The notes under the pieces are model-generated. The model was given only the letters and a program-made list of their open reading frames with translations. It did not search any database and had not been told where the DNA came from. The translations under genes and the position numbers were made by a program. From an uncultured Verrucomicrobia subdivision 3 bacterium (GTDB lineage: Bacteria > Verrucomicrobiota > Verrucomicrobiia > Limisphaerales > UBA11358): a stretch of 33,279 nucleotides of DNA. The stretch lies in the NCBI GenBank assembly GCA_903875465.1, contig CAIQWB010000020.1:1-33279 (forward strand), given 5' to 3'. Positions 11,786-30,564 of the stretch are shown piece by piece (position 1 is the stretch's first letter; the number at the start of each line of letters is the position of its first letter).

Positions 11786-11920
11786 CCCGATTATGTAGAA
11801 TAAATTGTTACATTTTGGTCAAATCAGTTGTCGGAAATTCAAGGGACCACTGAACTTATGCGGAAAGGGAATACCCCGGTGCCTTGAGCGCCAGGTGAAC
11901 GGCTTGATAAAGTAGGATTA

Positions 11921-12794: not shown

Positions 12795-13169
12795 ATGAAA
12801 ACCTGTTTCCCTATGCGCCACGCGCTGCCGGCCCTGCTGCTGCTCACCGTTTTGGCCGGTTGTTCCAAAAACAGCTCCACGGCCCTCGCGCCCGACCAAA
12901 TTCCCGTCGCCGTCAATCAGGCGTTCAAACAATCCGCCGGTGAGACAAAGGCGCTGGCGGGCGCGGTGGTATCCGCTGTGCAAGGCCAGGACCCGGCCAC
13001 GGCGTTCAATAGTTTGCAACAGTTGGAGCAGCAGAAGGATTTGACCCCTGAACAACGGGCCATCGCGGCCCGGGCCATGGCCGCCACGATGCCGCAATTG
13101 CAGACCGCGGCACAAAACGGCAACTCCACCGCCCAGGCCGTGCTGCATCACTACCTGTCCACCCGCTAA
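12795..13169 (+). CDS. Small lipoprotein of unknown function
   Basis: A 124-residue protein with a lipoprotein signal: MKTCFPMRHALP, a leucine-rich core, and lipobox LAGC at about residues 20-23, so Cys23 should be lipidated and the protein anchored in the periplasm or outer membrane. The mature part is Ala/Gln-rich and alpha-helical (FNSLQQLEQQKDLTPEQRAI, ARAMAATMPQLQTAAQNG), with no recognised domain. It starts four bases after the second pseudopilin-like gene and may share its transcript. The start is taken at the ATG that begins the signal peptide rather than one eight codons upstream inside the preceding gene. Confidence 0.8.
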   Translation: MKTCFPMRHALPALLLLTVLAGCSKNSSTALAPDQIPVAVNQAFKQSAGETKALAGAVVSAVQGQDPATAFNSLQQLEQQKDLTPEQRAIAARAMAATMPQLQTAAQNGNSTAQAVLHHYLSTR

Positions 13170-13223: not shown

Positions 13224-16200
13224 ATGAAACGAAGCACCATCAAACTGGCCGGCGCCCTGCTCGGGGCGTTGACCTGTGCCAGCAGCCTGCTGGCACAAAA
13301 TGTCGGACAATGGGATTTTGACAATGGCGATCTGACCCAAACCACTGGCGCCACCCTCGGCGATCTGGCCTATTACGACGGTCCGGCCGGCCCGACGTCC
13401 ACCCAGACCTTGTTCGGCAGCACCACCAATCTGGGCATTCCCAGCATCAATGGCACCAACGCCTTTGTCATGAAGTTTCCCGGTGGCCGCTTGCCGGAAG
13501 GCTTTCTGATGCCCACGCCGCCCGCCAATGGTGGAGGCACCCTCGTCAATCAATACAGCGTGATCATGGACGTTTTTTATCCGCAGGGCGGGATTCTGCG
13601 CCCCTTAATTCAGATGGATGACGGGACTTTGGACAATATTCGCGCCTTGTGGGACATCGGCCGGACGGATGGGATCGAAGTGACCAACACCTTGGGCGGT
13701 TCCTCCCTGGCCTCCGGTGTGTTTGGCACTCTCACCACCAATACCTGGTACCGTCTCGGTCTGGTGCTGGACACCACGGCCGGAACGGCCACGGTTTACA
13801 CCAACGGCGTCACCGTGGGTATCCTGAACTTTGGCGCGGGCAATGTTGACTCTCCGTTCGCCTTGTTCCCGGGGGATATGCTGCCCATCTTCAGTAGCAC
13901 CTATACCAACGCGCCGGGTTATGTCAACAGCGTCCAGGTCAGCGACCAAGTGCTGAGCCCCGGTCAGATGGAAGCCATTGGCGGACCTTCCGCGGCGGGT
14001 ATTCCGCTCGTGCTGCCGCCGGCCCATTCCTATATTGTTTCCCGCACCCCGAATGTGGGCGATACCGGCATCAATCCGGTGCCGGCCGTGAGTGTGGTCG
14101 TCGATCCCGGTTCCACCACCATTAATGCTGGCAGTATCAGCCTCGCCTTGGATGGTTCGGTGCTGCCGACCTCCGTGACGGCTGACGCCAACAATGCCAG
14201 CGAGTTCGATGTCAACGCCCAGGTGACCACGATCCTGGATCCGCAATCCGTGCACACGCTGTCCCTCACCTATTCGGACAGCCTGCTGGGCCTCCACACC
14301 AAGAGCTGGTCCTTCACGGTGGCCAATTATCAAAACATCACCCTGCCCACGCCGATTTATTCTGAGAATTTTGACGCCGTGGCCGAAGGGGCAATGCCCG
14401 CTGGTTGGTCGGTGACCAACAACACGGTGGCGCAAACCTCCGGTTTTGATCTGAACAAACCCAAGTCTGATTCTTACAAGGACTTTGTCGTGATCAGCAG
14501 CAATCGTTTGTCCACGGTGTTTTCCAGCCATGGCACCTATTCCAGTCCGAATCTCGGCACGACCACCGGCAATCGCCGCCTGGTGGTTCCGCCGATCGTT
14601 TTGAATGGCACCATTCTGGACAGCCTCGCCCACGGCAATCTGGCCTACGCCGATTCTGACACGCGCCAAAATGCCGGTGGCCAGGTCAACGTGCTGTTTA
14701 GCAAAGATTATGATTTGAGCTCCCAAACCAATGTCTATCTGGCCTTCAATAGTTTGTATGAGCAAAACCAGGACAACATTGGCTCGGTGGAATATTCCAT
14801 TGACCAAGGTGCCACCTGGCTGCCGGCTTTGTACATGCTCGATGATGGCACCACGGACAGCGACGGCTCCGATGTGGTGACCAACGCCGCCACCGGCCAG
14901 ATCGACGTATGGGCGACCTTTGGCACTCCCCGTTCGGATCAGGCCTATGGACTGGCCTATAGCAACTTCATCGGCGCGGTGGTCTCCACCAACCTGATTC
15001 CCTACATCTCCCCCCGCCGCAACGATGATCCGGTCTCCAGCAAGCGTATTGAAGTCATCCGCCTGCCGTTGGCGGACAAGCAATCGCATGTGCGTTTCCG
15101 TTTCGGCCAGGCCGGCACTTCAAGCTGGTACTTCGGTATTGATGACTTCGGCCTGTACAGCATCACCACCCCGGTGATCAGCAGCCAGCCCGGCAATGCG
15201 ACGGTCAACGCCAACACCCCGTACACCTTTGCGGTAACGGCCTCCGGCTCCCCGCTCACGTATCAATGGCGTTTCAATGGCGTGGCCATTCTGGGGGCGA
15301 CCAACCGCACCTACACCATCGCCAGTGTGAATCCGACCAATGCCGGTACGTATCAAGTCATCGTGGGCGGCGTCACCCGCAGTTCGCCTGCCGTCCTCAC
15401 GGTGAACACCACGCCGGTGCTCACGGCCGACCTGAGCGGGGAAATCGTGGATCCGGGTGCCACCGTGATCTTCACGGGCAAGGCCACCGGCGGCCAGCCG
15501 CTCACCTACCAGTTGTATTTGAATGGCAACCTGGTTTCCAGCTCGACCAGTGGCTCCTTCATCCTGAACAATGTCCAGGCCGCCAACGCCGGAAATTATC
15601 AACTGCTGGCCGTGAACAGCTACGGCACGGCGGCTGGGTCCATTGCGACCCTGCGCGTGTTTGCCGGTTCCATCAGCAGCAATCTGGTTGTGCACCTGCC
15701 GTTCGATGGCGACTTGAGCGACACGTCTGGCCGCGGTAACAATGCCGCGTATATGACCTATGGTGCCAATGCCAGTCCGGCTCCCCGGTTCGTCCCGGGC
15801 TTGTTTGGCCAGGCGTTTGAATACACCACCACCAATGACTACTCCGACATTGAATACGCCACCCTCGGCTATCCGGCCGACCTGCAATTTGGCGCGACCA
15901 ATGACTGGACGGTTTCGCTCTGGTGTAATTACACCAATCAGAGTGATGACCTGCCGTTCATTTCCAACAAGGATTGGGATAGCAGCAGCAACCTGGGCTG
16001 GGGTATCTTTACCCAATCGGGTGGTAATTACCGCGTCAACATCACCGGCCCCAATGGCGGGGCGGACAAGTTCAGCTACACCGACACGCCGAATACCTTG
16101 AAGAACGGCAACTGGCACCATGTGCTGGTGAGTGTGCAACACGCTCCCTTCGGCCAGTCGGCTTACGTTTATGCCTACCTCGACGGCGCTCTGGTTTCCA

Positions 16201-16655
16201 AACACCCCCTGAGCGTGGCCGGCACGGTGGACACCTTTGGCACGCCCATCACGGATCACCAGCAGGTCTCGCTGGCCCAAAGCGAATGGGCTGTGAACAT
16301 CGGCCAGGACGGCACGGGCATCTATACCGACGGCACGGGCGCCCATGATATTGACGCCAAGATTGATGACGTGGGCATCTGGCGCCGGGCCTTGACCTCC
16401 AATGAAGCCAGCGCCATTTACAATGCGGGTGTGGCCGGCAAGGACCTGTCCCAAGTCATGACGCCGTTCAAGCTGATCATCACGCTGGCCAATGGCAACG
16501 CCAACCTGTTCTGGATCGGCAGCAGCTCCTTGAAACTGCAACAATCCACCAGCCTCAACCCGGCCAACTGGACCGATGTCCCGGCCACCCTGGGTGCCAG
16601 CTCGGCGGTGGTTCCGGTGACCGGCAGCAGCACGTTCTTCCGCCTGTCCCAATAA
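13224..16655 (+). CDS. Large secreted LamG/Ig-like multidomain protein
   Basis: A 1143-residue exported protein with a signal peptide (1-25, ending SLLAQ). In order it has: a concanavalin/LamG-like beta-sandwich (about 25-255); an Ig-like domain beginning PNVGDTGINPVPAVSV (about 270-375); a beta-rich region starting YSENFDAVAEGAMPAGWS (about 380-650); two Ig-like repeats with NAGTYQV and NAGNYQLLAV signatures (about 655-815); a second LamG-like domain starting LVVHLPFDGDLSDTSGRGNN, with NGNWHHVLVSV (about 820-1080); and a short C-terminal module with LQQSTSLNPANWTDV. Such proteins usually bind carbohydrate or matrix; no catalytic motif is seen. There is no Shine-Dalgarno; the leader is A/C-rich. 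A strong terminator follows. Confidence 0.85.
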   Translation: MKRSTIKLAGALLGALTCASSLLAQNVGQWDFDNGDLTQTTGATLGDLAYYDGPAGPTSTQTLFGSTTNLGIPSINGTNAFVMKFPGGRLPEGFLMPTPPANGGGTLVNQYSVIMDVFYPQGGILRPLIQMDDGTLDNIRALWDIGRTDGIEVTNTLGGSSLASGVFGTLTTNTWYRLGLVLDTTAGTATVYTNGVTVGILNFGAGNVDSPFALFPGDMLPIFSSTYTNAPGYVNSVQVSDQVLSPGQMEAIGGPSAAGIPLVLPPAHSYIVSRTPNVGDTGINPVPAVSVVVDPGSTTINAGSISLALDGSVLPTSVTADANNASEFDVNAQVTTILDPQSVHTLSLTYSDSLLGLHTKSWSFTVANYQNITLPTPIYSENFDAVAEGAMPAGWSVTNNTVAQTSGFDLNKPKSDSYKDFVVISSNRLSTVFSSHGTYSSPNLGTTTGNRRLVVPPIVLNGTILDSLAHGNLAYADSDTRQNAGGQVNVLFSKDYDLSSQTNVYLAFNSLYEQNQDNIGSVEYSIDQGATWLPALYMLDDGTTDSDGSDVVTNAATGQIDVWATFGTPRSDQAYGLAYSNFIGAVVSTNLIPYISPRRNDDPVSSKRIEVIRLPLADKQSHVRFRFGQAGTSSWYFGIDDFGLYSITTPVISSQPGNATVNANTPYTFAVTASGSPLTYQWRFNGVAILGATNRTYTIASVNPTNAGTYQVIVGGVTRSSPAVLTVNTTPVLTADLSGEIVDPGATVIFTGKATGGQPLTYQLYLNGNLVSSSTSGSFILNNVQAANAGNYQLLAVNSYGTAAGSIATLRVFAGSISSNLVVHLPFDGDLSDTSGRGNNAAYMTYGANASPAPRFVPGLFGQAFEYTTTNDYSDIEYATLGYPADLQFGATNDWTVSLWCNYTNQSDDLPFISNKDWDSSSNLGWGIFTQSGGNYRVNITGPNGGADKFSYTDTPNTLKNGNWHHVLVSVQHAPFGQSAYVYAYLDGALVSKHPLSVAGTVDTFGTPITDHQQVSLAQSEWAVNIGQDGTGIYTDGTGAHDIDAKIDDVGIWRRALTSNEASAIYNAGVAGKDLSQVMTPFKLIITLANGNANLFWIGSSSLKLQQSTSLNPANWTDVPATLGASSAVVPVTGSSTFFRLSQ

Positions 16656-16733: not shown

Positions 16734-18068
16734 ATGCAAAACTCTGAGCCCTCAACCAAGCCGGCTTCTGCGGTTGCCGGTGCGACCCGGCCGCCACTCG
16801 GCGCGGCGAATGCGGAATCCGCGATGGGTATTTCCACCTCCCGCGCCGCCCTGCAACTAGGCTGCGTCATTCTTGGTTACATTGGCGTTTATTTGTGTCG
16901 CAAAAATTTCGCGGTGGCGGTCCCCCTCCTGCAACCTGCCTTTGGCACCGACAAGGCGCATATTGGCGCCATTGATAGTTATGCCACGATGGCTTACATG
17001 GCTGGCAAACTATTCTGGGGACCTAATTTAGTGGATCGCTTCGGTGGTAGAATTTGCTTTTTTGTGGTGTTGCTGGGCGTGGCCCTGTTTGGCGGCCTTT
17101 CGGCCTTCGCCATCAGCCTGCCCATGTTGGCGGCCTGTTACATGGCCAACCGCTTTTTTGGGGCGGGTGGCTGGGCCTCCATGGTCAAGCAGGTGCCGGA
17201 TTGGTTTTCCCGCCGGCATATGGCGCTGGCGCTGGCTTTTCTTTCTTTAAGCTTTGTCTTTGGCGGCGTTTGTTCCCTCTTGCTGGCCGGGCAGATTGCG
17301 GCATTTTCCGGCAATAACTGGCGGGCCGTGATGGGGCTGCCCTCCCTGGTCTTGCTCCTGATTGCGGGTATTTGCTGGCTCACTTTGGCGCGCGACCGGC
17401 GGCGGGCGGCCATTGCGAATAACCAGGTTGAACCCTGGACCTACCGGCGACTCGGGGCCCTGGTAAAAATCCCCCAATTCTGGATGCTGTGCATTCTTTC
17501 TTTTACCCTGACGATTACCCGGGAGACGTTTAATGTTTGGACCGTGGATTTTCTCAAGACCGACGGCGGCAGTCAGATGACCACCCAGATGGCGGCCTTA
17601 CTATCAACACCCTTTGACGCCATGGGTGCCGTCGGCATTTTGGCCTTGGGCTGGTTGATGGACCGGATCACCGGCGCGCAGCGCAAATGGTTGCTTTTTT
17701 CGATCCTGTTGACGGTGGCCGCCCTGACCTATGAATTGCCCGCCCTAATCCACCAACCCCTGTGGATGGTAATCTCAGCCATTGGCTTGATCGGACTCTT
17801 TTCATACGGACCTTACAGTCTGCTCGCTGGCGTGCTGTCGCTCGAGGTGGGCGGCGCCGACAGCGTGGCCACCGTGGCCGGCCTGGTGGACGCCTCCGGG
17901 TATCTCGCTGGCATACTTTCCGGCTATCTCTTTGGTCACATTCTGGACCTGGGCGGCTATCATCTGGGATTCCATTGCCTGGCCGTAACGACGGTCATAG
18001 GCGCCTTGTTATGTCTGGGCCTAAACCGGCCGGGCCAGCCCGACACCACTCAACTCTCCAAACCATGA
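16734..18068 (+). CDS. MFS transporter of the organophosphate:phosphate antiporter type, probable phosphonate importer
   Basis: A 444-residue integral membrane protein with about 12 helices. The N-terminal half carries an OPA (GlpT/UhpT-like) signature: GYIGVYLCRKNFAVAVPLLQ, then DSYATMAYMAGKLFWGPNLVDRFGGR, the conserved loop between helices 2 and 3. Later come RFFGAGGWASMVKQVPDWF and SRRHMALALAFLS. OPA carriers exchange phosphorylated solutes for phosphate. Because the next gene overlaps by four bases and encodes PhnW, the substrate is inferred to be 2-aminoethylphosphonate or a relative. ATG 16734 is chosen over a TTG one codon before. It is the first gene of a plus-strand unit reaching 24112. 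Confidence 0.8.
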   Translation: MQNSEPSTKPASAVAGATRPPLGAANAESAMGISTSRAALQLGCVILGYIGVYLCRKNFAVAVPLLQPAFGTDKAHIGAIDSYATMAYMAGKLFWGPNLVDRFGGRICFFVVLLGVALFGGLSAFAISLPMLAACYMANRFFGAGGWASMVKQVPDWFSRRHMALALAFLSLSFVFGGVCSLLLAGQIAAFSGNNWRAVMGLPSLVLLLIAGICWLTLARDRRRAAIANNQVEPWTYRRLGALVKIPQFWMLCILSFTLTITRETFNVWTVDFLKTDGGSQMTTQMAALLSTPFDAMGAVGILALGWLMDRITGAQRKWLLFSILLTVAALTYELPALIHQPLWMVISAIGLIGLFSYGPYSLLAGVLSLEVGGADSVATVAGLVDASGYLAGILSGYLFGHILDLGGYHLGFHCLAVTTVIGALLCLGLNRPGQPDTTQLSKP

Positions 18069-19216
18069 GTCTGCCCTCCCCCACCAATCGCGATGCCCGT
18101 TTGTTCACCCCCGGCCCTTTGACCACCAGTCTGGGCGTCAAGCAAGCCATGATGCATGATGCCGGCTCCTGGCACAGCGATTTCAATGCCCGGATCCGCT
18201 GGATCCGGGAGCGCTTGCTGGCGATTGCGGAATTATCCCCGGTGGAAGGCTGGGAAACCGTGCTCTTGCAGGGCAGTGGCACCTATGGCGTGGAAGCGGT
18301 CTTTGCGACTTGCATTCCGCCCGCTTGCCGGGTCTGCGTGCTCGCCAACGGTGCGTATGGGGAGCGGATGGTGCGCATGCTGGAACATCTGCACATCGAT
18401 CATACCGTGCTGCGGAGCCCGGAATCCGAAGGTCCGGATTTGTCCCTGCTGGCCGAAACGCTGGCGGCCGACCCCACGATCACCCACGTGGCGGCGGTCC
18501 ATTGCGAAACCACCACGGGCATCCTGAATCCCATTGCCGAAATTGGCCGGGTCGTGAAACGCCATTGTTGTTTGTTCATTGTCGATGCCATGAGCAGTTT
18601 TGGGGCGGTCCCACTAGAAATGGAAAGCACGGGCATTGATTTTCTGATCAGTTCGGCCAATAAATGCCTGGAGGGCGTTCCCGGTTTTTGCTTTGTCATC
18701 GCCCGCCGGGAAAGCTTGCTGGCGAATGCGGCCCACGCCCGTTCCCTGAGCCTTAATCTGGCCGACCAATTGCGGGGCTTTGACCGGAACGGACAGTTTC
18801 GCTACACCCCTCCCACCCACGTATTGCTGGCGTTTGAGCAGGCCCTGAATGAACACACCGCGGAAGGCGGCGTGGCGGCCCGGGGGGCGCGGTATCAAAG
18901 GAATCACGAAATATTGGTTGCCGGCATGCGCGGATTGGGTTTTCAGCCGTATCTGCCCCCGGCAGTGCAAAGTTTTATCATCACCGCGTTTCATTGTCCG
19001 TCCGACCCCCGGTTTACTTTCACAGAATTTTACCAGGCCCTGGCCGGGCGCGGCTTTATCATTTATCCCGGCAAGATCAGCCGGGCGGAAACCTTTCGCA
19101 TCGCCAACATTGGGCACCTCTTTGAAGCCGATATTCACGACCTGCTCGCGGCCGTCAGTGAGGTCACGGTTACTCTCGGCTTCAACCCCAAACCCCCGGC
19201 CGAGCTGGCACGGTAA
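18065..19216 (+). CDS. phnW: 2-aminoethylphosphonate--pyruvate aminotransferase
   Basis: PhnW moves the amino group of 2-aminoethylphosphonate to pyruvate, giving phosphonoacetaldehyde and alanine. The 383-residue product is a class V PLP enzyme of normal PhnW length. It opens with FTPGPLTTSLGVKQAMMHDAG and SWHSDFNARI, followed by LLQGSGTYGVEAVFAT, the CETTTGILNP segment, the cofactor Asp in FIVDAMSSFGAVP, and the PLP lysine Lys200 in SSANKCLEGVPGF. The C-terminal KISRAETFRIANIGH is also characteristic. Its ATG overlaps the transporter stop (ATGA), implying translational coupling. PbfA and PhnX nearby support the pathway. Confidence 0.93.
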   Translation: MSLPSPTNRDARLFTPGPLTTSLGVKQAMMHDAGSWHSDFNARIRWIRERLLAIAELSPVEGWETVLLQGSGTYGVEAVFATCIPPACRVCVLANGAYGERMVRMLEHLHIDHTVLRSPESEGPDLSLLAETLAADPTITHVAAVHCETTTGILNPIAEIGRVVKRHCCLFIVDAMSSFGAVPLEMESTGIDFLISSANKCLEGVPGFCFVIARRESLLANAAHARSLSLNLADQLRGFDRNGQFRYTPPTHVLLAFEQALNEHTAEGGVAARGARYQRNHEILVAGMRGLGFQPYLPPAVQSFIITAFHCPSDPRFTFTEFYQALAGRGFIIYPGKISRAETFRIANIGHLFEADIHDLLAAVSEVTVTLGFNPKPPAELAR

Positions 19217-19255
19217 TTCCCGCGCACAACCCGGCTGCGACTCCCGATTCATTTT

Positions 19256-20653
19256 ATGAAAACTCCCCCCCTGTGCCCTGCTCCCGATGCCCTCGATGTG
19301 TTTCGGGCGGAAGGCGATTTAAATTTGTCGCCTCAACGCCGCGTTTGGGCGGCGGAACATATTGGACCCGCCACGCAAGCGTTGCTGGATCAAGATGCCG
19401 GACATTTCCTCCATCAATCCCTCTCCACCCCCTGCCTCAATGTCTTGCGCCGCGCGGAAGGCGCTTGGATTGAGGACATCGATGGCCGGCGATATTTGGA
19501 TTTTCACGGCAATTGCGTGCATCAAGTGGGTTTTGCCCATCCCAAAGTGGTGGCGGCCGTCAAACACCAACTGGATGAATTATGCTTTTGCCCCCGGCGT
19601 TATACCTGCGAACCGGCCATTGAACTGGGAGCCAAACTCACCTCCCTCGCCCCGGGGAACTTGAATCGCGTGCTGCTCGCCCCCGGTGGCACCACGGCCA
19701 TTGGCATGGCCTTGAAACTGGCCCGGGTGGCCACTGGACGCTTCAAGTTTGTTTCGCTATGGGATTCCTTTCACGGGGCCTCCCTGGACGCGGTCTCCAT
19801 TGGCGGCGAGGCGGCGTTTCGCCAGGGGGTCGGCCCGTTGCTCCCCGGCTGCGAACACGTGCCGCCAGCGGAACCCATGCGCTGCCCCTTTCGCTGTGGC
19901 AAGGTGTGCAATCTAACCTGCGCGGATTATCTCGCCTATGTGTTGGAAAAAGAAGGCGATGTGGCGGCGGTGGTCGCCGAGACGGTGCGCAACACCCCCT
20001 TCATCCCGCCTCCGGAATATTGGCAGCGCATTCGGGCCGCCTGCGACAAGCACGGCACCCTGTTGATTCTGGACGAAATCCCCATCGGCCTGGGCCGCAG
20101 TGGAAAATTGTTTGCCTTTGAGCATTACGGCGTCGTGCCCGACATGGTCGTGCTGGGCAAAGGCCTCGGGGGCGGCATCTTTCCCCTGGCCGCCCTCCTC
20201 ACCAATGAGGCGCTGGATGTGGCCGGGCAAATGTCCCTGGGCCATTACACGCACGAAAAAAATCCCGTGGCCTGCGCCGCCGCCCTGGCGACCCTGCAAG
20301 TCATAGAAGAGGAAAACCTCGTGGAACGGGCCCGTGAAATGGGGGCCTATGCCCTCGAAAAAATGCGTGAACTGGCCACCCGCCATCCCCTGATTGCCGA
20401 TGTGCGCGGGCTCGGTTTGTTGTTGGGGATCGAACTGGCGGTGACGTTGCCGGATGGCCAGCGCCAACCCGCGATTGCCCAGGCCGAACAAGTCATGTAT
20501 GAGGCCCTCAAACGTGGCTTGAATTTCAAAGTCACCATGGGCAATGTGTTGACCCTGACCCCGGCATTAGTGATTACCCGCGAAGAAATGGACCAGGCCC
20601 TGGCGATTTTGGATGAGTCCCTGCGTCTGGTCGGCACTCCAACCACAGTTTGA
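19256..20653 (+). CDS. pbfA: (R)-1-hydroxy-2-aminoethylphosphonate ammonia-lyase, class III aminotransferase fold
   Basis: PbfA removes ammonia from (R)-1-hydroxy-2-aminoethylphosphonate to give phosphonoacetaldehyde, feeding PhnX. The 465-residue product is a fold-type I PLP protein resembling class III aminotransferases. It has FLHQSLSTPCLNVLRRAEGA, DFHGNCVHQVGFAHP, LAPGGTTAIGMALKLARV, the cofactor Asp273 in LILDEIPIGLGRSG, PLP lysine Lys302 in VVLGKGLGGGIFP, and GHYTHEKNPVACAAAL. The call rests on recalled similarity of these segments to PbfA plus position between phnW and phnX; an ordinary omega-aminotransferase is the alternative. An evenly spaced C-x3-C-x3-C-x3-C lies at 210-222. The gene starts 39 bases after phnW. 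Confidence 0.82.
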   Translation: MKTPPLCPAPDALDVFRAEGDLNLSPQRRVWAAEHIGPATQALLDQDAGHFLHQSLSTPCLNVLRRAEGAWIEDIDGRRYLDFHGNCVHQVGFAHPKVVAAVKHQLDELCFCPRRYTCEPAIELGAKLTSLAPGNLNRVLLAPGGTTAIGMALKLARVATGRFKFVSLWDSFHGASLDAVSIGGEAAFRQGVGPLLPGCEHVPPAEPMRCPFRCGKVCNLTCADYLAYVLEKEGDVAAVVAETVRNTPFIPPPEYWQRIRAACDKHGTLLILDEIPIGLGRSGKLFAFEHYGVVPDMVVLGKGLGGGIFPLAALLTNEALDVAGQMSLGHYTHEKNPVACAAALATLQVIEEENLVERAREMGAYALEKMRELATRHPLIADVRGLGLLLGIELAVTLPDGQRQPAIAQAEQVMYEALKRGLNFKVTMGNVLTLTPALVITREEMDQALAILDESLRLVGTPTTV

Positions 20654-20668
20654 ACCCCTGACCTGCGC

Positions 20669-23356
20669 ATGAAATTTAATTTAAATGGCACTATGGCCGT
20701 CCTGGCCGGTCTCAGCCTGCTCGCGCCCGGTCTCCGGGCACAAACCAATCTGGACGAGCTGGACTGGTCGGAAAATGTGGGCCGCGCCGGCAACGGCCGG
20801 GTGGTGCTCCCGGTAAACCAGGTCATCACCCCCGCCGGCACCCAAATCGAATTGCATGGCTTGCGACCCCAAGTGCTCGCCCTGAGCCCGGATGGCAAAA
20901 TCCTGGTCACCTCGGGCAAGACCCATGATCTGTTGGTGGTGGACCCTGACCGGCAGACCATCGTCCAAACCGTGTCCTTGCCCGATGACCGTGTGATCAC
21001 CAAGGTGGCCGGAGTTTCCCCGCACATTCTCAAACCGGATCGTGACGAGCAGGCCAGCTTTACAGGACTGGTGTTTTCCCCGGATGGCACGCGATTGTAT
21101 ATGTCCAATGTCAAGGGCAGCATCAAGGTTTTTGCCGTGGGGGCGGATCACCGGCTGAAAGGCCTGGGCTCCCTCGCGCTGCCCGACGCCAATGCCCCGG
21201 AGCGCCAGGAGGAAATCCCCGCCGGACTCGCCATTTCCAAAGATGGCCAGCACCTTTATGTCGCCGGAAATCTATCCAATCGTCTGCTTGAATTTGCCCT
21301 GCCGGAAGGCCGCTTCGTGCGCAGTTTTGACACAGGCATGCTGCCTTATGCCGTCGTGCTCGCGGGCCACAAGGCCTATGTCAGCAACTGGGGCGGCCGC
21401 CGGCCCGATCCCAACAGTGTCACCGGGCCCGGCGGCAAGGGCACTCTGGTGCGGGTGGATCCAGTGCGTTTTATTGCCAATGAAGGCTCGGTATCCGTGA
21501 TTGATCTGGCCCAAGGTGTGGTCACCGCCGAGGTCCTCACGGGCCTGCACGCCTGCGCCTTGCAGTTGACCCCCAACGGCCGCTATCTCTGCGTGGCCAA
21601 CGCCAATAGCGACACCATCAGTGTGCTCGCCACCGCCACCGACCAAGTCGTGGAAACCATCCCCGTCCGCTGGCAGGCCCAGGACCTTTTTGGCGCCTCG
21701 CCCAATGCCCTGGCCATGGATGACGCGGGCAAAACGCTCTACGTTTGCAATGGCACCCAGAACGCGATTGCCGTGCTGGCCTTCAAGCCCGGCAAATCCA
21801 AAATGCAGGGGCTCATTCCCACCGGCTGGTACCCCGGGGCCATCGTGTATGACCAGTCCCGCCGGCAACTGGCGGTCGCGAACATCAAAGGCACCTTGCC
21901 CGACGCGAATTACAACTTGTTCAAGCATGGTTATAATACCCATCAACATCTCGGCACCCTATCCCTCATCCCCCTCCCCGACAAAAGCAGTTTGCGGCGG
22001 GATACGGCCGTGGTGCTGCACAACTACCGGCGTGCCGTGGCCGAAAACGTCTTCGCCCCCGCCCGCGACGGCATCGCACCCAGTCCCGTGCCGGAGCGCA
22101 TCGGGGAACCCTCGGTTTTCAAACATGTGATCTATATCATCAAGGAAAACCGCACTTACGACCAGGTGCTGGGGGATGTCCGGGCGGGCAACGGGGACAA
22201 TCGCTTGTGCATCTTTGGTCAACGGGTGACTCCCAACCAGCATAAAATGGTGAATGATTTCGTTTTGCTGGATAATTTTTATTGCTGCGGCATTTTAAGC
22301 GCCGACGGCCATGAGTGGGCCGATTCCGCCCTGGCCACCGATTACATGGAAAAATCCTTTGCCGATTTTCCCCGCAGCTATCCGGACTTGCAGGACCATG
22401 GTGACTTTGATGCCATGGCCTATTCGCCCGGCGGTTTTATTTGGGACAACGCCCTCGCCCATGGCAAAACCATCCGCACGTATGGCGAAGGCACCGTGGC
22501 GGTGACGGCCTGGAATGACCCCCAGAATAAAAAGCCGCTGCACTTCCTCGATTATTACCACGATTTCCTCAACCACTCGCATTTAATTAATTACAGCAAC
22601 TACGCTGGTGTGGCGGCACTGCAACCCTTCATGATGACCAATTTCGTGGGCTGGAAACTGGACGTGCCGGACGTGTTCCGCGCCGAGAAAATCATCGCGG
22701 AGCTTCAGGATTATGCCGCCCGCGGCACCCTGCCCAACCTGATCCTCATTGATCTCCCCAATGACCATACTTCGGGCACGGATCCCGGCCTCCCCATTCC
22801 GGCCGCCCAGGTGGCCGACAATGACCTGGCCTTTGGCCAGGTCCTGGAGGCGCTCAGCCGCACTCCGTTGTGGCGGGACACCTGTGTGTTTGCCTGCGAG
22901 GATGATCCCCAGGCCGGCTGGGACCATGTCAGCGGTTATCGCACCACCGCCTATGTCGCGAGCGCGTATACCAAACGGCACACCGTCGTGAGCGTTAATT
23001 ACAACCAGACCAGCATCGTGCGCACCATCGAACTCATGCTGGGCCTGCCGCCCATGAGCCAGTTGGACGCCACCGCCACCCCCATGACCGCCTGCTTCAC
23101 CAACCAGCCGGATTTCAGCCCCTTCGCGTGCGTCACGAACAACATTCCCCTGGATCATTTGAACCCGGGCTTTTATTCCATCACGGATCCGCGGGAATTA
23201 CGGGATGCCAAGCTTTCCGCCCGGCTGCCGCTCGACAAACCAGACCAATGCCCCGAAGATGTCCTGAATCAAATCCTCTGGCATGCGCAACGCGGCTTTA
23301 CCGAGCCCTACCCGCGCTGGGCCATCTCCGAAACCACCGACCCGGATGATCATTAA
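20669..23356 (+). CDS. Secreted YncE-type beta-propeller / phosphoesterase fusion
   Basis: An 895-residue exported protein with a signal peptide (1-24, ending LRAQ). Residues about 45-420 form a seven-blade YncE/YVTN-like propeller, with repeats such as LALSPDGKILVTSGKTHDL and LQLTPNGRYLCVANANSDTI. Residues about 485-880 form a phosphoesterase of the phospholipase C/acid phosphatase and alkaline-phosphatase superfamily. Putative metal and catalytic residues are Glu493, Asn494 and Thr496 in KENRTYDQVLGD, SADGHEW near 544, Asp699 and His700 in DLPNDHTSG, and Glu744-Asp745-Asp746 with Asp752-His753 in EDDPQAGWDH. The substrate is unknown. Its place 15 bases after pbfA suggests release of phosphonate or phosphate from an ester outside the cytoplasm, which is inference. 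Confidence 0.85.
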   Translation: MKFNLNGTMAVLAGLSLLAPGLRAQTNLDELDWSENVGRAGNGRVVLPVNQVITPAGTQIELHGLRPQVLALSPDGKILVTSGKTHDLLVVDPDRQTIVQTVSLPDDRVITKVAGVSPHILKPDRDEQASFTGLVFSPDGTRLYMSNVKGSIKVFAVGADHRLKGLGSLALPDANAPERQEEIPAGLAISKDGQHLYVAGNLSNRLLEFALPEGRFVRSFDTGMLPYAVVLAGHKAYVSNWGGRRPDPNSVTGPGGKGTLVRVDPVRFIANEGSVSVIDLAQGVVTAEVLTGLHACALQLTPNGRYLCVANANSDTISVLATATDQVVETIPVRWQAQDLFGASPNALAMDDAGKTLYVCNGTQNAIAVLAFKPGKSKMQGLIPTGWYPGAIVYDQSRRQLAVANIKGTLPDANYNLFKHGYNTHQHLGTLSLIPLPDKSSLRRDTAVVLHNYRRAVAENVFAPARDGIAPSPVPERIGEPSVFKHVIYIIKENRTYDQVLGDVRAGNGDNRLCIFGQRVTPNQHKMVNDFVLLDNFYCCGILSADGHEWADSALATDYMEKSFADFPRSYPDLQDHGDFDAMAYSPGGFIWDNALAHGKTIRTYGEGTVAVTAWNDPQNKKPLHFLDYYHDFLNHSHLINYSNYAGVAALQPFMMTNFVGWKLDVPDVFRAEKIIAELQDYAARGTLPNLILIDLPNDHTSGTDPGLPIPAAQVADNDLAFGQVLEALSRTPLWRDTCVFACEDDPQAGWDHVSGYRTTAYVASAYTKRHTVVSVNYNQTSIVRTIELMLGLPPMSQLDATATPMTACFTNQPDFSPFACVTNNIPLDHLNPGFYSITDPRELRDAKLSARLPLDKPDQCPEDVLNQILWHAQRGFTEPYPRWAISETTDPDDH

Positions 23357-23386
23357 TCCTCGGCCACGGTTGATGACTGATAATTT

Positions 23387-24112
23387 ATGAAATCAAAATT
23401 GTTTTTGCCGCTGATCGTGGTTGCCGGGGCGGCTGCCGCCGTGGGCTTCTATTTGTTCCAGTCCCCGCCAGGAAACGGGGCACCCCCCCCGGCCGGCGAG
23501 TCCACCCCCGCACCGGTGGCGGCACCGGTGGTAGATCTGGCGGCCTTGCAAACGAAAGCGACGGCGGGCGACCCCGCCGCGCAAACGACTTTGGCCCGGG
23601 CCTATTTGACCGGTGGCGGGGTTAAAATGGACGTCAAAGCCGCGCTCAAATGGTTGACCCAGGCCACCAATCAAAATTATGCCGAGGCCTACGCGACGCT
23701 CGGCGAACTGGCGCAGGCCGGCCAGGGCATGCCAGTGAATCTCTCCGAGGCGGTCCGGCTCTACCAATTGGCGGCGGCGGGCGGCAGCGTGACCGCCCAA
23801 TACGACCTGGCGTACCTCTACGAACAGGGCACCGGCGTGAAACAGGATGAAAAAGCGGCCGCCCATTGGTACCAGTTGGCCGCCGAGGGGGGGGACCAAA
23901 CCGCCCAGTACGACCTTGGCCAGCGTTATCAACTGGGCGTGGGGGTGGCGGCCAGCCACGTGGACGCCTTTAAATGGCTCAGCCTGGCCGCCGCCCAAGG
24001 CCAGCCCGATGCCACCAAATTACTGCCCTCCGTGAAAGCCCAAATGTCAGCCGAAGAACTGCGCCAGGCCACTGAGTTAATCGCCCAGTTTGTCCCCCGG
24101 CCAGGGAATTAA
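23387..24112 (+). CDS. Membrane-anchored Sel1-repeat protein
   Basis: A 241-residue protein with one N-terminal membrane segment (KLFLPLIVVAGAAAAVGFYL) and a Pro/Ala-rich linker to about residue 48, followed by four to five Sel1-like repeats. Typical units read AQTTLARAYLTGGGVKMDVKAA, AEAYATLGELAQAGQGMPVN, AQYDLAYLYEQGTGVKQDEK and AQYDLGQRYQLGVGVAASHV. Sel1 repeats are alpha-helical solenoids that hold other proteins. The solenoid should lie on the periplasmic side. It starts 30 bases after the phosphoesterase gene and is the last gene of the unit, so it may scaffold or anchor that enzyme; there is no direct evidence. Confidence 0.85.
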   Translation: MKSKLFLPLIVVAGAAAAVGFYLFQSPPGNGAPPPAGESTPAPVAAPVVDLAALQTKATAGDPAAQTTLARAYLTGGGVKMDVKAALKWLTQATNQNYAEAYATLGELAQAGQGMPVNLSEAVRLYQLAAAGGSVTAQYDLAYLYEQGTGVKQDEKAAAHWYQLAAEGGDQTAQYDLGQRYQLGVGVAASHVDAFKWLSLAAAQGQPDATKLLPSVKAQMSAEELRQATELIAQFVPRPGN

Positions 24113-24143
24113 GCGACTGCCATCGCAGCCAGCTCCGCCGGTT

Positions 24144-24962
24144 TTAATGCGGCACCAAGCGCGGCGGCAACTGGCCATTGGTGAGTCGGTGATCGATAAC
24201 CTCCAGGGCCGAGGGTAGCTCCGTCAGGTTGTTAATCACAAAATGGGCGCCCGCTTCGGCCAGTTTCCGCGTTGCCCGCTGGATAATCCGGTTCCGGTCC
24301 TTTTCCGGCAGCCCGTTGAGCTCGCGTTCGCCCAGACTGATCAGGCTGCTGCTTTCCACCACCGCCACGGACCAAACCCCGGCGTTACTGGCCTCGGCCA
24401 CATCCGCGACGGTGTCACCCACTTTAACCACGGCGGCGGGCGGGCAAATTTTCAAAAACTCCAGATTCTTAAAGATCATCCAGGGCCAGGGACGGCCCTG
24501 GGGAACCTGATCGGCGGCAATCCAAAATTCCGGCATGTAACCCTGGCGGGCGGCGGCCGGGGCCAGAATTTCCATCAGGGGCGAGGTATAGCCAGTCGTG
24601 GAGCCAATCCGCAAGCCCTGCTCGCGCGCAAAGGTCAGCGCCCTCTCCAGGCCCGGAATCAGTTGGGCCGAGGCCGCCACGGTTTCCAGCATGCGTCGTT
24701 CGGCAGTGCGATACAAATCATCCACGTCATGCACGTTCGGGGGGGCCCCGTGCAATTGGTGCCAGACCGCCTGCACTTCCGGCAGGGCCAGCAGGGCCAG
24801 AATGTGGTCGCGCTTGTGAATACCCATGAATTGCTGAATATGCTCGAGCGACAACGCCACCCCTTTTTCGCGAAAGGCTGATTGAAACGCCGCAATCGGG
24901 CACAGGCAGCCAAAGTCCACCACGGTACCCGCCCAGTCAAAAATAATTCCCTTTAACTGCAT
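24144..24962 (-). CDS. phnX: Phosphonoacetaldehyde hydrolase (phosphonatase)
   Basis: PhnX hydrolyses the carbon-phosphorus bond of phosphonoacetaldehyde to acetaldehyde and phosphate. The 272-residue HAD protein has the phosphonatase-specific nucleophile motif FDWAGTVVD (Asp9) and the cap-domain Schiff-base lysine Lys50 in FMGIHKRDHI. It also has GSTTGYTSPLM, the arginine in QGRPWPWMIFKNLE and the acidic motif VKVGDTVADVAEASNAG. All expected catalytic elements are present and the length is normal. It lies on the strand opposite to phnW-pbfA, converging on the Sel1 gene with 31 bases between stops, and is divergent from the second HAD gene across 201 bases. Confidence 0.93.
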   Translation of the reverse strand: MQLKGIIFDWAGTVVDFGCLCPIAAFQSAFREKGVALSLEHIQQFMGIHKRDHILALLALPEVQAVWHQLHGAPPNVHDVDDLYRTAERRMLETVAASAQLIPGLERALTFAREQGLRIGSTTGYTSPLMEILAPAAARQGYMPEFWIAADQVPQGRPWPWMIFKNLEFLKICPPAAVVKVGDTVADVAEASNAGVWSVAVVESSSLISLGERELNGLPEKDRNRIIQRATRKLAEAGAHFVINNLTELPSALEVIDHRLTNGQLPPRLVPH

Positions 24963-25163
24963 ATATTTTGTGCCGTCAGCATAGGCCAGCCTGCCGCCGG
25001 CCCCAAACCCAAACCATGGTCAAAAAAGCGCCCTTGCCGTGCTCGCTAGGCGGAAACGGGATATCCGGACCGCTTGCCGGTTCCCGGACGGCCAACTACG
25101 CTTGGTGGACCATTCGCCAAACGAACTGGCTTGACCAACCACCACTGTTAACTGCCAAATCTT
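24963..25163. promoter_or_regulatory. Divergent control region between phnX and the second HAD gene
   Basis: This 201-base stretch without a gene must hold the promoters of both divergent units. On the minus side an AT-rich ATATATTTTG sits right at the phnX start. On the plus side TTGACC at about 25132 precedes an A/C-rich leader (ACCAACCACCACTGTTAACT) with no Shine-Dalgarno before ATG 25164. No operator palindrome is strong enough to name. Confidence 0.5.
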
Positions 25164-25892
25164 ATGAGCAAAATCAAACTGGTCGTTTTCGACCTGGCCG
25201 GCACCACCGTTGAGGATAACCATGCCGTGCGGGACTGCCTCTACACCGCCGCCCTGGAATTCAACCTGCCCACCACGCCCGAAGAAGTGCAGCTGCACAT
25301 GGGGACGAATAAAATCCATCTCTATCAGTATATCATCGCCCGGCGCCAGGGCCGCCCGATTGCTTTCAAAGACTTCGAAAAGCAGCAGGACCCGGCGACC
25401 CTCGAACTGGCCCTGCAAGTGTTTCACCGCTATGAAGTCCTGATGATCAATTATTACCGCACCGAAGTCCGGGAAATCCCGGGCGCGGCTGATACTTTTC
25501 GCTGGTGCCACGCCCAGGGCATCAAGGTGGCCACGAACACCGGCTTTCACCGGGAAATCACCCAGGCCATCATGGAGGGCCTGGGCTGGCTGCGCGATGG
25601 CCTCGTGGATCTGGCCGTGGATGTGGAGCATATTCCCAACCAGCGCGGGCGTCCCGCCCCGTATATGATCTTTCACGCCATGAGCCACCTCGAAATCCAA
25701 AGTGTGGCCGAGGTCGTCAAAATCGGGGACACGCCGGCCGACATGCTGGAGGGCACGAATGCTGGCTGCCGGGGCGTGGTGGGCGTCCTCACCGGCGTGC
25801 TGCCCGTGACCGCTTGGGGTCACCACCGTCATACCCACGTTATTCCCAGCGTGCGCGACCTGCCCGCCCTGCTGGAAACGGAATTTTCCTGA
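25164..25892 (+). CDS. Phosphonatase-like HAD hydrolase (TIGR03351-type)
   Basis: A 242-residue HAD protein related to PhnX but distinct. The nucleophile motif is VVFDLAGTTVED (Asp10). A lysine (Lys50) in HMGTNKIHLY falls at the same position as the Schiff-base lysine of the neighbouring PhnX. ATNTGFHREI, the arginine in RGRPAPYMIFHAM and VVKIGDTPADMLEGTNAG follow. This pattern matches the phosphonatase-like family often found with phosphonate genes; its substrate is not established to my knowledge. It is followed four bases later by the alcohol dehydrogenase, so the two form a translationally tight pair. A second phosphonatase for a substituted phosphonoaldehyde is the natural hypothesis. 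Confidence 0.82.
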   Translation: MSKIKLVVFDLAGTTVEDNHAVRDCLYTAALEFNLPTTPEEVQLHMGTNKIHLYQYIIARRQGRPIAFKDFEKQQDPATLELALQVFHRYEVLMINYYRTEVREIPGAADTFRWCHAQGIKVATNTGFHREITQAIMEGLGWLRDGLVDLAVDVEHIPNQRGRPAPYMIFHAMSHLEIQSVAEVVKIGDTPADMLEGTNAGCRGVVGVLTGVLPVTAWGHHRHTHVIPSVRDLPALLETEFS

Positions 25893-25896
25893 ACCC

Positions 25897-26988
25897 ATGA
25901 TCACCAGCAGACTGGCAGTCTTTCACGCCGCCGGCCGGCCGTTGACCCTGGAGTCCACCCCCGTGCCGCCGTTGCAAACCGGCGAAATCTTGGTGCGCAC
26001 CGAATATACGACCCTTTGCCGGAGTGATTTAAACACATTTTCCGGCAAGCGGACCGAACCGGTTCCGACCATCTTGGGCCATGAAATGGTCGGCCGGATT
26101 GCCGGCCTGGCCCCCGGGGCGCCCCCCACCGACTGCCGCGGGGCGGCCTTGCGCGTGGGCGACCGCGTGACCTGGGCGATTTATGCGGCGGATCCTGCCT
26201 CCCCGCTCGCCCGCCTCGGGTTGCCGCAAAAAGCCGCCGGCCTGTTCAAGTATGGCCATGAAACCATCCGGCCCGGCAGCACCCTGCACGGGGGCCTGGC
26301 GGAATATTGCATCCTGCGCCGCCATACCCCGGTCATCCGCATCGACGCCCCTGTGCCCTTGCCCCTGCTCGCCCTGATCAACTGTTCCGTGGCCACCGTG
26401 GCTGGCTCCTTGCGACTGGCCGGCCCCGTGGCGGGGCGCACCGTCATCATTGCCGGCGCGGGCATGCTCGGCGTGGTCGCCTGCGCCATGTGCCGCTGCG
26501 CCGGGGCAAAAACCATCATTGCCTTGGACATTGCCGCAGACCGCCTGGCCACCGCCACCCAATTTGGGGCGGACCATACCTTCCATCCCGGCTCCGGCTT
26601 TGCCGCGTTGCCGCAGGAATTGGCCACCCGGTGGCCTGGCGAACCGGTGGCCGTCGCCCTGGATTACAGCGGCGTCCCGGAAACCATGGAGGCGTTGCTC
26701 GGCCTGCTCGGCATCGGTGGCACCGCTGTTTTCATCGGCGCGACCTTCCCGCAACGCTCCCTGCAAATCAACGCCGAACAACTCATCCGCAAAGTCCATA
26801 CCATCAAAGGTTTGCATAATTACAACGAATCCGACTTCGTGGCTGCCGTCGAATTCATGGAACGTAATTATGCCCGCTTTCCCTTCGCAACCCTCGTGCA
26901 CGAGGAATTTGATTTGGCTTCAGTGAATGCCGCCTTCGCACACGCCCTGGCCTCCCGGGCCTATCGCGTCGGCGTTCGGATCTGTTGA
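25897..26988 (+). CDS. Phosphonate-associated zinc-type alcohol dehydrogenase (TIGR03366/HpnZ-like)
   Basis: A 363-residue medium-chain dehydrogenase/reductase. The GroES-like half has the catalytic-zinc ligands Cys41 in TLCRSDLNTF and His62-Glu63 in ILGHEMVGRI. The Rossmann half has VIIAGAGMLGVVACAMCRCA and ALDIAADRL, fitting NAD(H) use. The segment LGLPQKAAGLFKYGHETIRP and the pairing with the HAD gene fit the proposed phosphonate-catabolism dehydrogenase family. The loop that usually holds the four-cysteine structural zinc site (about residues 88-115) contains no cysteine. It presumably oxidises or reduces a phosphonate alcohol or aldehyde; the substrate is unknown. Confidence 0.82.
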   Translation: MITSRLAVFHAAGRPLTLESTPVPPLQTGEILVRTEYTTLCRSDLNTFSGKRTEPVPTILGHEMVGRIAGLAPGAPPTDCRGAALRVGDRVTWAIYAADPASPLARLGLPQKAAGLFKYGHETIRPGSTLHGGLAEYCILRRHTPVIRIDAPVPLPLLALINCSVATVAGSLRLAGPVAGRTVIIAGAGMLGVVACAMCRCAGAKTIIALDIAADRLATATQFGADHTFHPGSGFAALPQELATRWPGEPVAVALDYSGVPETMEALLGLLGIGGTAVFIGATFPQRSLQINAEQLIRKVHTIKGLHNYNESDFVAAVEFMERNYARFPFATLVHEEFDLASVNAAFAHALASRAYRVGVRIC

Positions 26989-28764: not shown

Positions 28765-30564
28765 ATGCCACCGCTTAACGCTGAAAAACTGGCCAAAGCC
28801 AAGTCGCTCGGGTTTTCCGACCGGCAAATCGCTCATTTAACGGGTCAAACCGAGGATGCCGTCCGCGCCGAGCGTAAACGTATCGGCCTGATTCCCAGCT
28901 ACCGCCTGGTGGACACTTGTGCCGCCGAGTTCGAGGCCTACACTCCTTATTATTATTCCACCTACGATCGCGGCGATGACGAGGTCAAGGGCAACTCCGC
29001 CAAAAAGGTCATGATCCTCGGCGGTGGCCCCAACCGCATCGGCCAGGGCATTGAGTTTGACTATTGCTGTGTTCACGCCGCCTTCGCCCTCAAGGAAGAC
29101 GGCTTCGAGACCATCATGGTCAATTCCAACCCCGAGACCGTCTCCACCGATTACGATACCAGCGACAAGCTCTTCTTTGAGCCTTTGACCCTCGAGGATG
29201 TCCTGCACATTTACGAACGGGAACAATGCTGGGGTGCCATCGCCCAGTTTGGCGGCCAGACGCCACTCAACCTTGCCCTGGCGCTGCAAAAAAACGGCGT
29301 CAACATCATTGGCACCTCGCCCCAAAGCATCGAGATCGCCGAAGACCGCAAATTGTTCGCGGCCATGCTGAACAAGCTGAACATCCCGCAGCCCCCCAAC
29401 GGCCTGGCCACCAACGAGGCCGAGGCCCTGCTGGCTTCCAAGCAACTCGGTTATCCCGTCCTGGTGCGCCCCAGCTTCGTCCTGGGCGGCCGCGCCATGC
29501 AGATTGTTTATTCCGATGCCGAACTGTCGCACTACATGCGCTTCGCCGTCGAGGCCTCCCCCGAACGTCCCGTGTTGGTGGATAAGTTTCTCGAAGATGC
29601 CACCGAGGTGGACGTGGATTGCATCACGGATGTCGGTCACTTTCCGAACCCGGAGGAAGGCACCATTGTTATCGGCGGCATGCTCGAGCACATCGAATTT
29701 GCCGGCGTGCATTCTGGTGACGCCGCCATGGTTTTGCCCCCGCACACGCTCACTCATAGTGTCATTGCCACCATCCGCCAGTACACCCACGCCATGGCGC
29801 GGGAATTGAAGGTCATCGGCCTGATGAACGTGCAATACGCCGTGAAGGGCGAAACCGTTTACGTCCTGGAGGTGAATCCCCGTGCCTCCCGCACTGTGCC
29901 TTTCTCCAGCAAGGCGATCGGCGTCCCGCTGGCCAAACTGGCCGCCAAGGTGATGGCCGGTAAAACCCTCAAGGAACTGGGTTTCACCGCGGAAATCTGG
30001 CCCGATTACTGGGCCGTCAAGGAATCCGTCTTCCCCTTCAACCGTTTTCACGGCCAGGACATTTTGCTTTCCCCCGAAATGCGCTCCACCGGCGAGGTCA
30101 TGGGCCTGGATGCCGACCTGGGCGTGGCGTATGCCAAGTCGCAAATGGCGGCCAACTCACCCTTGCCGGTGAGCGGCCGGGTGTTCATCAGCGTCAGTGA
30201 TCACCATAAAGACGAGGTCGCCGCCGTCGCCCGGCAATACACTGACCTGGGCTTTGAACTCGTCGCCACCAGTGGCACGGCCGCCGTGTTGGAAAAAGCC
30301 GGATTGAAAGTGCAGCGCGTGCTGAAACTGACCGAGGGCCGTCCCAATGTCGTGGACCTCCTGAAAAACAAGGAAATCCAGCTCGTCATCAATACCCCCG
30401 CCGGCCAGAGCCCGCGCGCGGATGAAATCAAAATTCGCACCACGGCCGTTTATACCGGCACCCCCATCATGACCACCCTGAGCGGGGCCAAAGCCGCCGC
30501 CCTCGGCATCGCCGCCCTGAAAGAACGCGGCTACGATGTGAAGACCGTGCAGGAATATCACTGA
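28765..30564 (+). CDS. carB: Carbamoyl-phosphate synthase large subunit, stand-alone C-terminal half
   Basis: This 599-residue protein matches only the second half of CarB. It starts within the oligomerisation domain (FSDRQIAHLTGQ, then SYRLVDTCAAEFEAYTPYYY). It continues with the carbamate-phosphorylating ATP-grasp unit (LGGGPNRIGQGIEFDYCCVH, NSNPETVSTDYDTSDKLFFE, RPSFVLGGRAMQIVYSD, EVDVDCITD, VLEVNPRASRTVPF) and ends with the MGS-like regulatory domain (VFISVSDHH to VQEYH). The carbamoyl-phosphate-forming half is present; the bicarbonate-phosphorylating N-terminal half is not upstream, where a TGA at 28699 closes the frame. Split large subunits occur in some bacteria and archaea, so it is probably functional with a partner elsewhere. 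No carA is adjacent. Confidence 0.9.
   Translation: MPPLNAEKLAKAKSLGFSDRQIAHLTGQTEDAVRAERKRIGLIPSYRLVDTCAAEFEAYTPYYYSTYDRGDDEVKGNSAKKVMILGGGPNRIGQGIEFDYCCVHAAFALKEDGFETIMVNSNPETVSTDYDTSDKLFFEPLTLEDVLHIYEREQCWGAIAQFGGQTPLNLALALQKNGVNIIGTSPQSIEIAEDRKLFAAMLNKLNIPQPPNGLATNEAEALLASKQLGYPVLVRPSFVLGGRAMQIVYSDAELSHYMRFAVEASPERPVLVDKFLEDATEVDVDCITDVGHFPNPEEGTIVIGGMLEHIEFAGVHSGDAAMVLPPHTLTHSVIATIRQYTHAMARELKVIGLMNVQYAVKGETVYVLEVNPRASRTVPFSSKAIGVPLAKLAAKVMAGKTLKELGFTAEIWPDYWAVKESVFPFNRFHGQDILLSPEMRSTGEVMGLDADLGVAYAKSQMAANSPLPVSGRVFISVSDHHKDEVAAVARQYTDLGFELVATSGTAAVLEKAGLKVQRVLKLTEGRPNVVDLLKNKEIQLVINTPAGQSPRADEIKIRTTAVYTGTPIMTTLSGAKAAALGIAALKERGYDVKTVQEYH

Follow-up and report, generated by a model that had tools for sequence, protein, structure and literature searches.

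On a contig of an uncultured Verrucomicrobia subdivision 3 bacterium of the order Limisphaerales (assembly GCA_903875465.1, contig CAIQWB010000020.1; the whole contig of 33,279 bases is called the window below), genes for the degradation of 2-aminoethylphosphonate (AEP) and of its 1-hydroxy form (hydroxy-AEP, HAEP) lie together with genes for predicted secreted and membrane proteins, and we consider, with moderate confidence, that this locus is a system for scavenging phosphonate esters. The eight genes that a first-pass annotation had placed between positions 16734 and 26988 are all there as intact open reading frames (ORFs), and encode an importer of the organophosphate:Pi antiporter (OPA) type (MFS), PhnW, PbfA, a propeller-phosphoesterase (PPE), a Sel1-repeat protein, PhnX, a second phosphonatase-like HAD protein (PhnX2) and a Zn-type alcohol dehydrogenase.

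From the families, gene order, motifs and linkage visible in the sequence, we infer substrates, transport direction, secretion and regulation as follows. A secreted PPE would free ester-bound AEP and hydroxy-AEP outside the cytoplasm, these ester-linked substrates being suggested by gene linkage, and a LamG/Ig protein (SEC) together with the membrane-anchored Sel1 protein may assist it in some way. An AepP-like carrier of the organophosphate:Pi type would take up the free phosphonates, after which PhnW, acting on AEP, and PbfA, acting on R-HAEP, would each yield phosphonoacetaldehyde for hydrolysis by PhnX to acetaldehyde and phosphate. The dehydrogenase would most likely oxidise another phosphonate alcohol, the simplest guess being 2-hydroxyethylphosphonate, to a beta-carbonyl phosphonate that PhnX2 would cleave through a Schiff-base lysine, and an AraC-type protein may control the gene set.

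Marine phosphonates occur as polysaccharide esters, and the enzymes releasing them have merely been postulated to be alkaline-phosphatase-like (PMC5649143, PMC8931226), release from marine polysaccharide by alkaline phosphatase (APase)-type enzymes or by phosphonate monoester hydrolase being the postulate of PMC5649143. This scheme resembles the one proposed here in that an ester hydrolase feeds a phosphonate pathway; it concerns PhoD and PEH enzymes and C-P lyase bacteria, whereas here PF04185, PF01663 and GDPD-like proteins are linked to PhnW and PbfA. Such linked candidates beside AEP/HAEP genes make the ester-release step directly testable, and the linkage also suggests functions for the TIGR03351-type phosphonatase-like HAD and its dehydrogenase partner. 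The core pathway is already known; the novelty lies in its coupling to secreted hydrolases, and among the titles and abstract openings seen in full-text searches of an open-access library (subscription papers and supplementary figures lying outside this scope) none describes a hydrolase linkage to AEP/HAEP genes.

The core pathway and its conserved gene block

The degradation of AEP and hydroxy-AEP ascribed to phnW, pbfA and phnX in the first-pass annotation stands, all three products passing curated cut-offs. The predicted AEP:pyruvate transaminase PhnW (18065-19216, plus strand) scores 482.4 bits against a cut-off of 296 for NF010006 and 461.5 against 400.8 for TIGR02326, is likewise over the cut-off of TIGR03301, and matches the solved structure 1m32 with an E value of 6e-114. 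The ammonia-lyase PbfA (19256-20653, plus strand), predicted from its family score to be the R-HAEP lyase, reaches 688.1 bits against 525 (NF049939), and the phosphonoacetaldehyde hydrolase PhnX (24144-24962, minus strand) 320.4 bits against 220 (TIGR01422), with E 8e-64 to PhnX structures. In alignment with these structures PhnX carries the sequence MGxxKxxH, which we take to be the motif of the Schiff-base lysine. Because all three enzymes pass their cut-offs, a predicted pathway from AEP and R-hydroxy-AEP through phosphonoacetaldehyde to acetaldehyde and phosphate is readable in the window. The same three enzymes make up the hydrolytic AEP/HAEP route PhnW-PbfA-PhnX (Zangelmi et al., 2021, PMC8154272); relative to that route, the window adds the PF04185 phosphoesterase, Sel1 and LamG proteins, and its PhnX lies on the opposite strand. 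The metagenome-assembled genome (MAG) to which the window belongs (5.3 Mb, 153 contigs, 96% complete) gave no match to PEP mutase and none to PhnJ, so that neither phosphonate synthesis nor C-P lyase is seen there; as no PEP mutase was found, we reject a part for PhnW in phosphonate synthesis.

The genes from MFS to Sel1 form a compact run. MFS (16734-18068) overlaps PhnW by 4 bases, and gaps of 39, 15 and 30 bases separate PhnW, PbfA, PPE (20669-23356) and the Sel1-repeat gene (23387-24112), all on the plus strand. PhnX is encoded on the minus strand, converging on Sel1 and diverging from PhnX2; it thus stands outside the Sel1-side operon, and at least three transcripts would be expected from this arrangement; the 201 bases between phnX and phnX2 (24963-25163) presumably hold a divergent promoter. 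The importer had been described as the first gene, which needs correcting, since three genes precede it in the same direction and the unit thus extends beyond 16734-26988: a type II pseudopilin-like gene (N_methyl, DUF1559; 11921-12790), possibly the first of the co-directional run, a small lipoprotein gene with an LAGC lipobox (12795-13169, with the start at 12795 or 12813) and the gene of SEC (13224-16655; 1143 residues, signal-like N-terminus, LamG and Ig domains by Pfam), all on the plus strand, with intervals of 4 (or 22), 54 and 78 bases leading from pseudopilin to lipoprotein, SEC and MFS.

In the family searched, PbfA is over the cut-off in 4 of 49 genomes; across the order it was found in 102 of 320 (E up to 1e-110), and 100 loci were read in addition to the window, G216 being absent from the set (L numbers denote loci or stretches of relatives and G numbers genomes). 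Contig ends hide neighbours in such stretches. Whether relatives keep the transporter, phosphoesterase and Sel1 genes by phnW and pbfA was a check proposed with the first-pass annotation, and they do: the order MFS-PhnW-PbfA-PPE-Sel1 recurs in each of the three congeners that have PbfA (L065 in G033, L066 in G013, L067 in G038). A locus of another family (L064) retains MFS-PhnW-PbfA-PPE up to the contig end, L109 retains PhnY-PbfA-PPE, L099 reads SEC-MFS-AlkP-PhnW-PhnY-PbfA-PPE (AlkP being a small PF01663 protein), and L126 has PPE-Sel1 on the opposite strand, adjoining SEC-PbfA-PhnW. In L206 (G074, a genome with no PbfA match), pseudopilin, lipoprotein, SEC, MFS, PPE and Sel1 follow one another and are succeeded by a convergent PhnX, 51% identical to that of the window, and by PhnW. 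The Sel1 protein, which passes PF08238 and has a hydrophobic N-terminal segment, is encoded after PPE in L065, L066, L067 and L206, and on this conservation we reject the idea that the two are chance neighbours.

The upstream genes recur as well. Nearly full-length SEC homologues lie directly upstream of MFS in L065 (44%), L099 (55%) and L206 (65%); the G013 and G038 stretches gave no tblastn match to SEC, and hold another long ORF or masked bases in its place (masked in G038). Lipoprotein homologues stand between pseudopilin and SEC in L065/L223, L206 and L099/L235, and a search of the own genome with the residues from position 12804 on gave a single match, hence no second copy. L065, L066, L067, L206 and L099/L235 also have a pseudopilin-like gene ahead of the block; genes of this type turn up in these loci at many unrelated positions, so that on its own this is weak evidence.

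Two observations concern PbfA relatives elsewhere in the order. In L063, L069, L071, L072, L087 and L091, PbfA is followed by a second gene of the class III aminotransferase type, whose product is about 30% identical to it. L146-L153 and L162 encode PbfA relatives (54-56% identity) close to sulfatases, and matches to PhnW and PhnX are absent from their surroundings; another use of PbfA-like enzymes is possible there.

Hydrolases beside phosphonate genes

Behind a signal-like N-terminus, PPE combines a lactonase/YncE-type beta-propeller (PF10282) with a PF04185 phosphoesterase domain (37.4 bits, cut-off 23), and its residues E493, N494, S544, H548, D745, D746 and H753 are invariant in all 39 rows of the alignment, six of these rows being duplicate copies of a gene. 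In a tree sampled from the 30 best places of the order-wide PPE search plus the copies at PbfA loci, the eight phosphonate-linked rows fall within a clade of nine (support 98/92), and the labels linked and unlinked change 2 times, against 7.4 in shuffles, none of 500 shuffles being as low. Of 42 sequences the tree holds 34, as six duplicate gene copies, a fragment of 38% and the incomplete copy of L126 were dropped, and the weak PPE match of L145 is absent from it. The own genome holds a second PPE copy, 57% identical.

Other PbfA loci of the order encode small PF01663 alkaline-phosphatase-like proteins (AlkP) or GDPD-like proteins with signal-like N-termini, two kinds of hydrolase occurring together in L091, L099 and L159. 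A hydrolase (AlkP 19, GDPD 16, PPE 6) lies within 1.5 kb of a phosphonate gene and on the same strand in 38 of the 100 PbfA loci, three more hydrolase matches lying elsewhere in those loci; where PbfA has 5 kb on either flank, which is so in 44 loci, a linked hydrolase is present in 21. Recurrence at PbfA loci was the reason for choosing AlkP and GDPD, and the order-wide placement test was made for AlkP only. It comprises 77 matches from 67 of the 320 genomes. Of the 39 that share at least 51% identity, 21 are found no more than 15 kb from PbfA (31 of 39 being in PbfA genomes), whereas none of the 38 with 42% or less is (9 of 38 being in PbfA genomes). Four further places of close AlkP homologues were read, of which two adjoin PhnW (L322, L324), one MFS (L321) and one none of PhnW, MFS or PbfA (L323). 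By a crude measure, signal-like N-termini are present in 17/17 AlkP, 6/7 PPE and 11/16 GDPD proteins, and in 1/41 PhnW, 0/97 PbfA, 2/22 PhnY and 1/8 PhnX2 proteins, figures consistent with secretion of the hydrolases.

Such placements bear on a first competing explanation, general phosphorus scavenging, in which PPE and the other hydrolases would be ordinary phosphate-ester enzymes, co-localised with AEP genes for a shared phosphorus supply. Both PF04185 and PF01663 enzymes act mainly on phosphate esters, and these genomes have numerous relatives of both at other places, as it would expect; the linkage is nevertheless specific to subclades, being found for the close and not the distant AlkP homologues and for one PPE clade, and Pho-box matches do not exceed chance, so that we regard this explanation as rather unlikely. 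A wider version of phosphonate-ester scavenging would have the secreted hydrolases of all three kinds, propeller-PF04185, small PF01663 AlkP-like and GDPD-like, become dedicated phosphonate-ester hydrolases in this order and supply the missing first step, releasing AEP and HAEP, and perhaps also 2-hydroxyethylphosphonate, from lipids or glycans; three funnels, PhnW, PbfA and the dehydrogenase, would then lead to beta-carbonyl phosphonates cut by PhnX or PhnX2. We advance this generalisation only tentatively.

Several results weigh against phosphonate-ester scavenging at this locus. Linkage counts are raw and ignore kinship, and 62 of the 100 PbfA loci have none of the three hydrolase kinds nearby (39 with less than 5 kb on one side, 23 with at least 5 kb on both sides). 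PPE relatives occur in 184 of 320 genomes (E up to 1e-150) and GDPD relatives in 170 of 320, both widespread away from phosphonate genes, with GDPD linked in 16 of 100 loci; the GDPD-like protein is below the Pfam cut-off (22.7 against 27), an unlinked PPE of G164 (65-66%) sits inside the linked clade, and 18 of the 39 close AlkP homologues are not recorded near PbfA, 8 being in genomes without it and 10 on another contig. The measure of signal-like N-termini also flags PhnA (4/21) and PbfD (5/6), the latter being its false positives. An AlphaFold2 model of PPE from a four-row alignment has a mean pLDDT (predicted local distance difference test) of 43.7, with the catalytic half below 50. Across congeners Sel1 is 41-57% identical, and the window's PhnX is just 38-39% identical to theirs, against 68-82% for MFS, PhnW, PbfA and PPE. 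PhnX2 (189 bits, TIGR03351 cut-off 218.9) and the dehydrogenase (305.4 bits, TIGR03366 cut-off 328.1) do not reach their cut-offs, and for 5 of the 31 MFS homologues the stretch read holds no phosphonate gene. As to regulation, 3 Pho-box-like matches were found where 1.6 are expected, 20 of 100 shuffles giving as many, and the best candidate word for a shared AraC operator occurs in 5 of 9 regions, a count equalled in 3 of 3 shuffles.

That so many PbfA loci lack a hydrolase would suit the idea that the secreted and membrane genes are incidental hitch-hikers and that the functional unit, serving free AEP and HAEP, comprises only the importer, PhnW, PbfA and an enzyme that cleaves the C-P bond, and so would six stretches with MFS, PhnX2 and PhnW and without a PPE, AlkP or GDPD match (L308, L314, L316, L317, L319, L325). 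MFS-PPE-Sel1 is retained in L206, however, despite an absent PbfA and a moved PhnW, and different hydrolase families recur at PbfA loci; we hold incidental linkage to be quite improbable.

Carbon-phosphorus cleavage, PhnX2 and the dehydrogenase

The C-P cleaving step is interchangeable between relatives. PhnX lies about 6 and 9 kb upstream of MFS in G013 (39%) and G038 (38%), and G033 has PhnA-PhnY upstream of the block and no PhnX match except its PhnX2. Of the 100 loci, 26 have PhnY or PhnA matches no farther than 8 kb from PbfA, and at such a distance 7 have PhnX2 and 2 have PhnX (L090 counting under both PhnX and a weak PhnY match), and at 66 of the 100 none of PhnY, PhnA, PhnX2 and PhnX was found in the stretch read. 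The first-pass annotation had included phnX and the PhnX2-dehydrogenase pair in the locus, which is right for the window; neither is a fixed part of it, as PhnX2 and its partner are on a different contig in G033 (71%), present in G038 (70%), and PhnX2 was not found in G013.

PhnX2 (25164-25892, plus strand) and the dehydrogenase (25897-26988, plus strand) are adjacent, and their nearest families, under whose cut-offs both remain, are TIGR03351 (PhnX-like HAD) and TIGR03366 (HpnZ dehydrogenase), themselves "hypothetical equivalog" families. Of the earlier designation as a second phosphonatase-like HAD with a dedicated dehydrogenase, the presence of the genes and the retention of the phosphonatase lysine hold, and the family assignments fall short of curated thresholds. 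PhnX2 matches a PhnX structure with E 1.8e-13 and has the conserved motifs D-x-A-G-T and M-G-x-x-K; D10, A12, G13, T14, M46, G47 and K50 are kept in nine of nine real rows (the tenth row of the alignment, L296:1-105, being a wrong fragment) at positions that align with PhnX. After the PhnX literature, these positions presumably include the nucleophile and the Schiff-base lysine (K50). In ten loci (L074, L121, L127, L129, L308, L314, L316, L317, L319, L325) a PhnX2 relative accompanies MFS and PhnW with no PhnX, PhnY or PhnA match in the stretch, which suggests that PhnX2-type enzymes are able to act as phosphonatase on the PhnW product. The PhnX2 of the window is just 37-38% identical to four such relatives in the alignment, and from this and its pairing with the dehydrogenase we would guess that it acts on a different beta-carbonyl phosphonate.

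Instead of supplying PhnX2, the dehydrogenase might belong to a separate PhnX2-dehydrogenase module and dispose of acetaldehyde, which is the product of PhnX. This is compatible with the favoured explanation of the remaining genes, and we give it somewhat less than even weight: in G033 a different contig carries the pair, next to a PF01663 protein and the AraC homologue; TIGR03366 was nonetheless named by its curators as associated with phosphonate catabolism, and PhnX2, if its lysine works as in PhnX, would need a carbonyl substrate that the dehydrogenase could supply. A further dehydrogenase-like gene of AEP clusters is that of PbfF, an HAEP racemase of family PF02826 (PMC12366243); the two share their occurrence in an AEP cluster, and the dehydrogenase of the window is ruled out as a PbfF racemase by its family (PF00107, PF08240 and PF16912 by Pfam, with no PF02826). 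The PF01663 protein of G033 just mentioned (L208, positions 6050-7621) has a signal-like N-terminus.

Importer, regulation and neighbouring sequence

MFS passes PF07690 and has TIGR00881 as its closest NCBIfam relative, far under the cut-off, all named OPA families being matched only below cut-offs; it can be aligned with SLC37A4, the RK-motif Arg included. Homologues occur in 31 of 320 genomes of the order (E up to 1e-60), and in 25 of these a phosphonate gene is near: 12 lie within 15 kb of PbfA, that of G074 near PhnX and PhnW, and for another 12 the stretch read contains PhnW or PhnX2. In G160 the homologue is adjoined by AlkP only. An OPA-type protein encoded beside phnW matches the description of AepP, a characterised GlpT-related AEP permease reported in Verrucomicrobia together with phnW genes (Murphy et al., 2021, PMC8316502), and we regard MFS as a putative AEP importer that is AepP-like in kind, uptake being the predicted direction. 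The first-pass annotation had listed the OPA importer as an unusual addition; in view of the precedent of AepP, we reject its novelty.

Two other protein families at PbfA loci may serve in uptake. A ModA-like extracellular binding protein (SBP_bac_11 in two stretches) is encoded near PbfA, PhnW or the second class III aminotransferase in L069, L086, L087, L115 and L161, a candidate for alternative phosphonate uptake, and DUF5690 proteins recur at L083, L124, L125, L140, L142 and L145, some beside PbfD and PhnX2, as a candidate second importer family.

The AraC-family gene at 9837-10859 (plus strand; AraC_binding and HTH_18 by Pfam) probably belongs with the locus as its regulator: homologues of 59-66% identity in L208 (G033), L210/L067 (G038) and L211/L066 (G013) each adjoin PhnX2 or PhnX. 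Membership in the Pho regulon was rejected on the Pho-box count given above. By eye, the DNA ahead of the pseudopilin gene is similar in the window (11786-11935) and in L210 of G038 (12364-12480) and could hold an AraC operator, the likeness not being above shuffles in a crude test. A promoter scan gave 7 matches against 7.6 expected, i.e. the chance level, and a terminator scan 31 against 23.9 (standard deviation 4.5), slightly above expectation. Beyond the dehydrogenase, a 599-residue ORF at 28765-30564 resembles, by eye, only the C-terminal part of the carbamoyl phosphate synthase large subunit, which suggests a split carB.

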